Origin: Comamonas testosteroni
Lineage (GTDB): Bacteria; Pseudomonadota; Gammaproteobacteria; Burkholderiales; Burkholderiaceae_C
Assembly (NCBI GenBank): GCA_008727115.1
Contig: CP044131.1
Location: forward strand, 310,001 to 374,000
DNA length: 64,000 nucleotides
Direction: 5' to 3'
Shown: in pieces, positions 18,049-20,232 of the stretch
How the letters are laid out: each line of letters begins with the position of its first letter
Position numbering within the stretch: position 1 is the first letter of the stretch
Position numbers and translations under genes: made by a program
Notes under the pieces: model-generated
The model's database searches: none
Told to the model about the DNA's origin: nothing
The model's input: only the letters and a program-made list of their open reading frames with translations

Positions 18049-18786
18049 ATGGCGAGAACCATTGGTGAAGTGAACTTGGCCGCAGAATTGTGGACGCCTG
18101 CTGTGCAGCAGCGCTTTGAAACACTTTTTTCTGTGGCCGGGCGCAAGTCGCTGTCCGGTTGGCGCCAGACGCCAAGACAGACGGCGGAAGTGCTGGTGAT
18201 TGAGGGATTCGCGCCAGTGGATTTCAAGGACGGTGCCAGTGTTCCCTGTGTGGTCTACGTCGGTGGCGAGGCAGCTTTGCAACCTTTGGGGCGTTCCGCT
18301 CAGGGCTGGGCAGCACATCTTGACGTGGACTTCACGCTGTCCGATCTGATCGATATTCTGGATCGCGCAGCCGTTTTTCTTATGGATTGGAGAGCGCGGC
18401 AAAAAGCCAGTGTGACTTTGACCCTGCAGCGTGCTCTGGAAGATTTGAAGCACCAGGGCCTTGAATGTCCGCACCGCTTTCAGCTCAAGTCTTGGATTGC
18501 TTTGCCTATGGGGGCCAATACGGCTCAGAACATGCGTGTGCTGGCACTCTTGTCGCGTGGCCCTATTGATGCCAGATCACTGGCAGAGCACTCTGGCATC
18601 GAGCTGCCGCAATTGGTGGCATTGCTGTCTCTGCCGCAGCTTCAGACAGCACTTCAATGCAGTCTGCGTACGCAGCAGGTGCAGGCGACGGTAACGAAAT
18701 CAACAAAAACGCAGCCAGCCATTTCGGTGACACGTCAGTGGGTGAGCAAACTGACTGGCTGGATTACGCGCGGAGGACGTACATGA
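18049..18786 (+). CDS. uncharacterised first gene of a GTPase/Roadblock cassette
   Basis: 245 residues. The N-terminal 115 residues alternate short beta and alpha segments (VLVIEGFAPVDF, CVVYVGGEA, FTLSDLIDILDRAAVFLMDW) and could be a degenerate receiver-like fold. Residues about 160-205 (NMRVLALLSRGPIDARSLAE, then LPQLVALLSLPQL) look like a small winged helix, similar in layout to the DUF742 (CvnC) proteins of actinobacterial conservons. A Lys/Thr-rich tail follows. Its stop codon overlaps the ATG of the next frame (ATGA), showing tight coupling to the GTPase. No family assignment is certain. Confidence 0.7.
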   Translation: MARTIGEVNLAAELWTPAVQQRFETLFSVAGRKSLSGWRQTPRQTAEVLVIEGFAPVDFKDGASVPCVVYVGGEAALQPLGRSAQGWAAHLDVDFTLSDLIDILDRAAVFLMDWRARQKASVTLTLQRALEDLKHQGLECPHRFQLKSWIALPMGANTAQNMRVLALLSRGPIDARSLAEHSGIELPQLVALLSLPQLQTALQCSLRTQQVQATVTKSTKTQPAISVTRQWVSKLTGWITRGGRT

Positions 18787-19350
18787 CATCTTTTATCCCC
18801 ATGCAACCCGGCCAGGGTTTGCTGCGGGTGAGCCCTGCTGGGCCCCATGGGCATTGGTAAGACCACAGCGCTGCGCAGCTTATGCGGCCAGTTGATGGCT
18901 GGCAGCGATGTGCCCAATCTCGACAAGGCAGCACACTCCAAGGACTTCACGACCGTGGGGGCTGAGTTTGGTGAGATTGACCTGGGATCGGGGGAGCGCT
19001 TGCAGCTGGTTGGAAGTCCAGGGCAGGATCGCTTTGATTTTGTACGCCGCTGGGTGCTCTCTGCCTCAGTAGGTGCGCTGCTGATGCTGGACGTCAATGA
19101 TGCCGCTGCGGTGGATTACGCCTCTGAAATGCTGAAGGGCGTGGCTGAACTGGAGACCTCCCCGCTGATGATCATTCTCAGCTGCCGCTCGGCCAGTGGG
19201 GCACAGCAGGAAGCGTTCAGTGCAGCGCTGCAGGCCAAAGGTCATGACATTGTTCCTCTTGTCGAGGCCGATCCTCGCGATCGTCAGCAGATGCTGGATG
19301 CCCTGGGTGTACTGGCATCACTGCTGTCCTTGCAAAGTCAGAATTTATGA
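18783..19350 (+). pseudogene. Ras-like small GTPase split by a single-base frameshift in the P-loop
   Basis: The frame from 18783 (MTSFIPMQPGQGLLRV) stops at 18858-18860. A second frame, open from 18832 and with its first ATG at 18847, carries the rest of a GTPase. Removing the A at 18831 joins them as RVALLGPMGIGKTTALRS, a complete beta strand plus G1 motif G-x4-G-K-T. Further motifs: switch-I DFTTVGAEFGEID, G3-like LVGSPGQDRFDFVRRW, no clear NKxD. This pattern fits the COG2229/MglA-like GTPases. It could be a true mutation, a sequencing error, or recoding; reinitiation at 18847 would give a protein lacking the first P-loop residues. The following gene overlaps by 4 nt, so the operon structure is intact. 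Confidence 0.8.
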
Positions 19351-19745
19351 AAACCAATAGTCCTCTTGTTATTCCGGCCCACGCAGTCGAGGCCGGTCAG
19401 GAAATCCTGACGCGCGTAGTTGCGCCTGTTGCTGGTGTGCATATCGCTTTGCTTTGCACGCCCGATGGCTTTGAGATCACGGCGCTGCGCATTCGCAGCG
19501 AGCTACCGACCGAGCGCCTGTCCGCCATGGCGGGCTCGCTCATGGCCATGGCCAAGGCCGTGGCCAACGAAATCGGTCACAAAGACTGTAGGCGCCTGAC
19601 TTTCGAGACGGAGTCAGGCACGGTGGTCTTCCAGGCGGTGAACGGCTCTTTTCCGGCAGTTCTTTGTTTGGTGGTGGATCAGAACGCCTTGCTGGGCCGC
19701 GCGCTTTGGGCGGCAGGCGAGGTCTCTACAGGGTATCTGCCCTGA
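19347..19745 (+). CDS. Roadblock/LC7-like protein (first copy)
   Basis: 132 residues. The start ATGA overlaps the GTPase stop. The order is an N-terminal helix (AHAVEAGQEILTRVVAPV), a strand with GVHIALLCTPDGFEI, a helix rich in Ala/Met (MAGSLMAMAKAVANEIG), and the strands LTFETESGTVVFQAV and FPAVLCLVV. This matches the Roadblock/LC7 fold of MglB-type partners of small GTPases. The conserved small-residue helix after a Leu/Ser-rich segment is typical. Inferred role: GTPase-binding or activating subunit. Fold assignment is by pattern only. Confidence 0.7.
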   Translation: MKTNSPLVIPAHAVEAGQEILTRVVAPVAGVHIALLCTPDGFEITALRIRSELPTERLSAMAGSLMAMAKAVANEIGHKDCRRLTFETESGTVVFQAVNGSFPAVLCLVVDQNALLGRALWAAGEVSTGYLP

Positions 19746-19770
19746 TTGAGGTGAGGTTCTGAGGTTAGGG

Positions 19771-19790
19771 TGGGCGCACAGTCTGTGTGC
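19771..19790 (+). other. hairpin in the gap between the two Roadblock genes
   Basis: CGCACAG / CTGTGTGCG-type inverted repeat (stem CGCACA / TGTGCG) 25 nt after the first Roadblock stop. There is no T-tract, so it is more likely an mRNA-stability or partial attenuation hairpin than a terminator. Confidence 0.4.
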
Positions 19791-19824
19791 GGGTTCCTTG
19801 TCTTGCTTTCTATAAGGTGGATTT

Positions 19825-20184
19825 ATGGCCTCTATTCAAGATTCTCTGGACGCTCTGATGATGACTGACGGAGCTGTCTGTGCAGCTCTGGTCGACAGTA
19901 CCAGTGGCATGCTGATGGGCAGCGCCGGCAGTGGTGTCGATATGGAACTGGCTGCAGCAGGCAACACGGAAGTGGTGCGTGCCAAGCTCAAGACCATGCG
20001 CATGCTCAACCTCAATGATCAGATCGACGACATTCTGATCACTCTGGGCAAGCAGTACCACATCATTCGTCCAGTGAGTGCGCATGAGGGCGTGTTCTTC
20101 TATCTGGTTCTGGACAAGACGCGTGCCAACCTGGCGCTGGCCCGTCGCAAGACCATGGATGTGGAAAAGGAACTCAAGCTCTGA
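19825..20184 (+). CDS. Roadblock/LC7-like protein (second copy)
   Basis: 119 residues, start after AAGGTGG. It opens with a helix (SIQDSLDALMMTDGAVCAAL), then DSTSGMLMGSAGSGVDMELAAAG, NTEVVRAKLKTMRML, a strand IDDILITLGKQYHIIRPV and FFYLVLDKTRANLALARRK. This is the textbook Roadblock arrangement and is closer to the family than the first copy. Two different Roadblock proteins next to one GTPase recall MglB and MglC of Myxococcus. It is followed by a strong terminator, so it is the last gene of the cassette. Confidence 0.78.
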   Translation: MASIQDSLDALMMTDGAVCAALVDSTSGMLMGSAGSGVDMELAAAGNTEVVRAKLKTMRMLNLNDQIDDILITLGKQYHIIRPVSAHEGVFFYLVLDKTRANLALARRKTMDVEKELKL

Positions 20185-20206: not shown

Positions 20207-20232
20207 AAAGCCTGCCTGGAGCAGGCTTTTTT
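20207..20232 (+). terminator. intrinsic terminator of the GTPase/Roadblock cassette
   Basis: Stem AAAGCCTGC / GCAGGCTTT, 5-nt loop, then TTT, 23 nt after the last stop. Confidence 0.9.

Follow-up and report, generated by a model that had tools for sequence, protein, structure and literature searches.

A probable diverged Group 3-type MglA GTPase switch in Comamonas testosteroni, with a broken GTPase frame and an intact second cassette

A 64,000-nucleotide stretch of the Comamonas testosteroni genome, hereafter the window, carries four tightly packed genes that form a cassette around an MglA-type GTPase. The window covers bases 310001-374000 of a genome assembled as a single contig of 4,136,480 bases (G000:C1 in our set). 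Sequence comparison and structural modelling indicate that the cassette consists of a receiver-like/winged-helix protein (O1), the GTPase, an MglB-like Roadblock protein (R1) and a second protein of Roadblock fold (R2). It is a largely known, if little-studied, type of system in a diverged variant, not a new kind. Taken as a whole, it is probably a diverged Group 3-type MglA switch, belonging to a diverged Comamonadaceae branch and mostly inherited vertically, whose GTPase frame is interrupted in the window genome; elsewhere on the contig lies a second cassette, which is intact. The four-gene cassette described by the original prediction is real, with open frames on the forward strand at 18049-18786, 18847-19350, 19347-19745 and 19825-20184 and a terminator-like hairpin at its end. 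That prediction was silent on the frame break, on the second cassette, and on a distant Roadblock gene, R3, with its kinase/regulator locus. The features of the region, in window coordinates, are as follows.

18049..18786, forward strand: O1, with a receiver-like N-terminal half (residues ~4-123), a winged-helix-like middle (~140-206) and a conserved C-terminal helix (225-240)
18783..18860, forward strand: coupled GTPase start (ATGA), whose frame closes after 25 codons owing to the frame break
18828..18847, forward strand: GTPase frame-change stretch, where the frame differs from that of all relatives compared
18832..19350, forward strand: rest of the MglA-type GTPase frame, with its first ATG at 18847, within the P-loop
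19347..19745, forward strand: R1, Roadblock/LC7, MglB-like, candidate GTPase-activating protein (GAP), with a PF03259 match (E 1.6e-6) and an invariant Asp-Gly turn
19775..19791, forward strand: hairpin between R1 and R2, possible attenuator, from a consensus scan alone
19825..20184, forward strand: R2, second Roadblock-fold protein, whose equivalent turn lacks Asp
20214..20232, forward strand: intrinsic-terminator-like hairpin downstream of R2

The consensus scan found 6 terminator-like sites in the region against 3.0 expected.

Group 3 MglA systems occur in beta- and gamma-proteobacteria and, in the paper describing them (Wuichet and Sogaard-Andersen 2014, PMC4316618), combine a receiver-like/winged-helix protein with MglA and one or two MglB proteins. 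The gene content and order of the present cassette agree with this description. The same paper gives the group a GTPGQ motif at G3, a G4 that often lacks its usual Lys, and a conserved Arg at G5 (DAR). Among the 14 GTPases compared, G3 reads G[S/C]PGQ, with Ser at the second residue in nine, Cys in five and Thr in none, and its Gln is kept in 13/14. G4, placed by eye at an S-C-R type motif, lacks the usual Lys and has Arg in 14/14; G5 has Asp and Arg in 14/14, its middle residue being Pro in 13/14 and not Ala; and G2 has Thr-Thr where an Arg finger would be. The likeness to Group 3 lies in G2, G4 and G5 and in the partner protein with a receiver-like N terminus and a winged-helix C terminus. 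The differences are the G3 motif, the shorter O1 that lacks a Lys-Pro pair, and the phylogeny: in a tree built without the 2014 Group 3 sequences, the Comamonadaceae-type GTPases form a separate, long-branched clade apart from other beta- and gamma-proteobacterial copies. Because the G3 motif departs and the clade is long-branched, we treat the cassette as a Group-3-like variant, not as an ordinary member. Within the tree, copies from the window's genus cluster with Comamonas and Delftia copies. Pfam returned Ras-type matches to the GTPase, all sub-threshold, and the sequence supports its earlier identification as MglA-like. Further GTPase types occur in the genus: G051 also holds a GTPGQ-type copy (L039), and G021 has another type (L038 8869-10432, 47% identity) with an O1-like neighbour; nothing in its 18-kb locus matched R1 or R2.

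O1 had been read from gene layout as a possible winged-helix stand-in for the DUF742 protein of actinobacterial conservons. The winged helix held up: the C-terminal region of O1 has a weak likeness to regulators of winged-helix type, among them the PDB chains of HlyU and PcaV (E 0.04-0.06), and Pfam gave one insignificant winged-helix match (E 0.18). The homology to DUF742 did not, as no cassette protein matched that family at E 10, and we rejected it. DUF742 was also found in none of 20 genomes of the class, a weak control because the control genomes likewise gave no match over the family cut-off. Instead, by its modelled structure, the N-terminal half of O1 folds like a response-regulator receiver, the first Foldseek match being the FrzS receiver domain (E 0.017, probability 0.99). 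This receiver-like domain would lack the normal phosphorylation pocket, and the Lys-Pro of the receiver fifth strand is missing. No sequence relation between O1 and RomR or FrzS was seen. No CvnC structure appeared among the fold matches listed for O1, a search that used the N-terminal half alone and excludes nothing on this point. The protein ends in a conserved helix, in which Leu235 and Trp238 are invariant in 35 sequences, and its C-terminal homology reaches distant cassettes. At 245 residues O1 compares with stop-to-stop frames of 326-429 residues in 13 distant loci.

The two Roadblock proteins are different, as had been proposed. R1 is a Pfam Robl_LC7 protein, and its Asp-Gly turn is present in 11/11 sequences. 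The Asp of this pair is predicted to lie within reach of MglA in section 15 of PMC4316618, and because of the pair we read R1 as a putative GAP. A Roadblock fold was found for R2, yet no Pfam match; at the turn that we judge by eye to be equivalent, it has Ser-Gly in 21/22 sequences and Thr-Gly in the remaining one. For annotation, R2 is a well-conserved Roadblock-fold family that the Pfam Roadblock model misses. A recent duplication giving rise to R1 and R2 was rejected, as hhalign detected no similarity between them. Fused forms of the R2-like domain also occur. In 14 loci (L176-L189) it is the C terminus of 408-617-residue frames that by eye share an MLTSLFGDL-like start, and in L117 (7026-7871) and L175 (895-1851) it lies behind an unrelated N-terminal region. 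The L117 fusion protein has no Pfam match at E 0.1.

The cassette is conserved as a unit, as predicted. Within the genus, 29 of 53 genomes carry the GTPase, and R1 and the R2 family each occur in 30, namely the same 29 and G033. In the latter, which is 59% complete, an R1 match (C7, E 2e-48) and, on a different contig, a fused R2-type protein were found, with no GTPase match; the genome is either incomplete or holds a decayed cassette. We compared 29 other copies: the second copy of the window genome and a single copy from every further GTPase-bearing genome of the genus (28). All four genes stand in order with -4/-4 overlaps in 28 of them; in L029 (G032), R1 and R2 are not adjacent and the switch motifs are altered. 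Named records, which partly overlap with the genomes behind these copies, gave 26 Comamonadaceae loci (Comamonas, Delftia, Paracidovorax, Diaphorobacter, Acidovorax and one uncultured bin with two). All four genes are present in 25 of the 26, in one of which a contig end truncates O1; the exception is Delftia sp. PS-11, without R1 and R2. The remaining 6 of 32 named-record loci are five short P-loop matches and one Corynebacterium locus. This last, from Corynebacterium glaucum (L069 3397-5026), is a trio of a divergent R2-like gene, a GTPase and an R1-like gene; no kinase gene was recognised by eye among the listed frames between 1500 and 7000. In a class-wide sample, 79 of 229 genomes matched the GTPase at E 0.001, many through short P-loop pieces, and 36 did so at E 1e-12 or better (counted from the table).

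The neighbours of the cassette are a helicase gene (rep) before it and an AEC transporter gene after it. By eye, the cassette sits between rep and the AEC gene in 7/7 Acidovorax, Paracidovorax and Diaphorobacter loci inspected, with one additional gene ahead of the AEC gene in the three Acidovorax loci; within the window's genus, the same flanks recur in L033 and L042. Because the rep and AEC neighbours are common to four genera, we judge a mobile origin of the native cassette unlikely.

The two ATGA overlaps noted earlier are both present. The GTPase frame behind the first one, however, is broken, which had gone unnoticed. In all 29 other copies an ATGA overlap (-4) couples O1 to the start of the GTPase, whose frame stays open for 183-190 residues. 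The window genome keeps the start at 18783, but that frame closes at 18860, and a stop at 18829-18831 precedes the frame that encodes the rest of the GTPase. Since the first in-frame ATG, at 18847, falls inside the P-loop, translation from it would yield a product missing both the first strand and the initial glycine of the P-loop. Profile searches found one internal stop in the window copy; among the other strong matches listed, the distant G253:C72 alone has one. The break is absent from all 29 other copies, which makes a programmed frameshift unlikely. The break is either a recent mutation or an assembly error.

An assembly or sequencing error, which would leave the native cassette fully functional in this genome, has close to an even chance of being correct. 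Downstream of the break there is no decay: in a 14-row alignment, 0 family-invariant residues are altered. The remaining frame was compared with eight relatives: its ratio of nonsynonymous to synonymous substitution rates (dN/dS) is 0.03-0.12, which falls in the range shown by intact relatives, at a dS of ~1-2, near saturation. The remaining GTPase sequence thus looks fully constrained. In further assemblies from the genus, G022 and G029 (L141-L160), isolated frame changes were flagged too, in genes that we take to be priA and fliM, respectively. Against an error stand the single-contig assembly and a frame-change screen over 400 kb. With G029 as reference the screen flagged 4 of 132 genes, and with G022 as reference 2 of 137. 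The GTPase break was the only real frame change among them as judged by eye, the other flagged cases having been dropped for looking like antisense or over-extended frames. The screen was incomplete, in that the G022 run missed the GTPase site and 14 (G029) and 11 (G022) stop-crossing alignments were left unresolved singly.

The second cassette lies at G000:C1 ~2,058,384-2,060,617 (L031 5885-8118), with all four genes intact. Its GTPase nests with four Acidovorax copies and one uncultured Comamonadaceae copy (support 100/100). Around it are genes for a Tn3 transposase, a PAS-GGDEF-EAL protein, a chemoreceptor, an insertion-sequence transposase and a phage integrase, and this cassette was likely gained horizontally. 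An adjoining MHYT-GGDEF-EAL gene (L031 3492-5695; G000:C1 ~2,055,991-2,058,194) is spread over different frames and, from its sequence, looks broken.

Far from the native cassette, the window genome encodes R3, a relative of R2 (G000:C1:3912215-3912568), which adjoins malate synthase G and is convergent with genes for a PAS-type histidine kinase and an OmpR-type regulator. We searched the 53 genus genomes for this kinase at E 1e-40, scoring at most 35 candidates per genome. Among the scored candidates it occurs in 22 genomes, all GTPase-bearing and all with R3 767-939 bp away, and in none of the 24 GTPase-lacking genomes. The other GTPase-bearing genomes differ: in G024, R3 lies near a contig end without the kinase; in G051, R3 is present only as a fused form and a fragment; and five (G001, G002, G008, G032 and G052) lack both kinase and R3. 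Additional R2-type genes of G002, G032 and G052 adjoin another GTPase. G037, nested among positive species, has neither GTPase nor R3 nor kinase. Elsewhere, L113 (7017-8212) and L114 (6976-8122) each hold two tandem R3 copies, followed in L113 by a kinase/regulator pair.

In a family sample of 150 genomes, with scoring limited to 12 candidates per genome, 17 matched the kinase query at E 1e-35. Three of them (G000, G298 and G425, at E <1e-140) have R3 adjacent and a cassette-type GTPase, and G298 and G425 belong to another genus. The other 14 matches are weaker (37-50% identity); three are near full-length (G308, G326 and G371), and no R2-family match was found near the kinase in these. To account for shared ancestry we used an rpoC tree, which covers 52 genomes because one of the 53 gave no match, and left G024 out of the contrast count. 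On supported branches there were four independent contrasts, in which the kinase changed the same way in 2.5 (mean), the opposite way in 0 and showed no difference in 1.5 (median p 0.25). The association of kinase and GTPase is therefore strict yet not significant after phylogeny.

The cassette had been called sensor-less. No kinase match was found among the cassette proteins, the helicase before them or the transporter after them, which bears this out for the cassette itself; the system, however, may not be sensor-less, because the kinase/regulator pair beside R3 is restricted to GTPase-bearing genomes of the genus. One could go further and propose a split conservon, with its sensor in trans, in which the kinase and OmpR-type regulator feed the GTPase switch through R3 as a bridge. 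The strict distribution, the retention of the R3-kinase pair in another genus and the joint absence of all three genes from G037 speak for such an arrangement. We nevertheless consider it rather unlikely: the contrasts are few, the kinase is not obligatory because five GTPase-bearing genomes lack it together with R3, and R3 and the kinase/regulator pair are not one operon because they are convergent. Slightly more doubtful is a fuller version, in which an R3 adaptor links two-component signalling to the GTPase of a proteobacterial split conservon, the native switch has failed and a horizontally gained cassette of the Acidovorax lineage has taken over.

For the preferred reading, a diverged Group 3-type switch, we envisage the following mechanism. 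The GTPase would cycle between GTP and GDP, with R1 probably acting as GAP through its Asp-Gly turn. Lacking the Asp, R2 and the distant R3 would be non-catalytic Roadblock adaptors that may pair with R1, a role we presume to be like that of MglC in Myxococcus. O1 would be the input arm, most likely setting the nucleotide state as an exchange factor or else carrying the output, and the kinase/regulator pair near R3 is a possible upstream signal. In the window genome the second, Acidovorax-type cassette would run the switch, unless the frame break is an assembly error. By analogy, the most likely output is a surface behaviour (type IV pili or polarity), which is a guess. Co-occurrence with type IV pili was dropped as a test of it: PilO cannot discriminate because it is present in 51/53 genus genomes, including 22 of the 24 that lack the GTPase, and neither supports nor excludes this output.

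Another output is conceivable, if improbable in our estimate: O1 could be a DNA-binding, response-regulator-like protein controlled by the GTPase/Roadblock pair, so that the cassette would control gene expression. Its receiver plus winged-helix architecture and the weak C-terminal likeness to HlyU and PcaV fit such a role. Winged helices, however, also serve as protein-binding modules, and the conserved end helix with Leu235 and Trp238 could rather contact protein or membrane. No DNA target of O1 is known. Transcriptional control was proposed for Group 3 by the 2014 authors (PMC4316618, section 18).

Among known systems, the cassette fits Group 3 better than the conservons to which it had been likened. 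Actinobacterial conservons (CvnA-D or MfpB-E) likewise encode a GTPase, its Roadblock GAP and a further small regulator in a single operon; in mycobacteria, two papers report the Roadblock protein as a GAP and MfpC as a likely guanine-nucleotide exchange factor (PMC13343842, PMC13015309), the latter, a 2026 preprint, reporting MfpC solely from Actinobacteria. The present cassette differs in lacking a kinase gene (CvnA), in a first protein that is not DUF742 (CvnC), in gene order and in lying outside Actinobacteria. Myxococcus MglA, with MglB, MglC, RomR and FrzS, shares the use of more than one Roadblock partner and of receiver-like partner proteins. Its GTPase is of Group 1, with an intrinsic Arg finger (PMC4316618, section 15), and receiver-type partner genes do not lie near mglA (section 18), whereas here the Arg finger is absent and the receiver-like O1 is encoded beside the GTPase. 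No paper in the literature collection searched joined roadblock, Comamonas and GTPase.

The closest parallel to R3 comes from Snodgrassella, whose mgl locus, in the available parts of PMC11112851, is of Group 3, with mglA, two coupled mglB genes and a distant orphan mglB closer to mglB-2. There, a mutation in the orphan was favoured in a non-native bee host, and the orphan was linked with colonisation of the host and with flares on soft agar. R3 resembles it in lying far from the cassette and being related to R2; it differs in adjoining a kinase, a neighbour that those parts of the paper do not mention for the orphan mglB. Group 3 systems are widespread in beta- and gamma-proteobacteria, yet how signals enter them has no explanation in the literature surveyed, and the kinase/regulator/R3 locus is a concrete, testable candidate for that input. 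With two Roadblock types and a receiver-like partner, the GAP/adaptor/receiver logic of Myxococcus becomes testable in the easily grown Comamonas.
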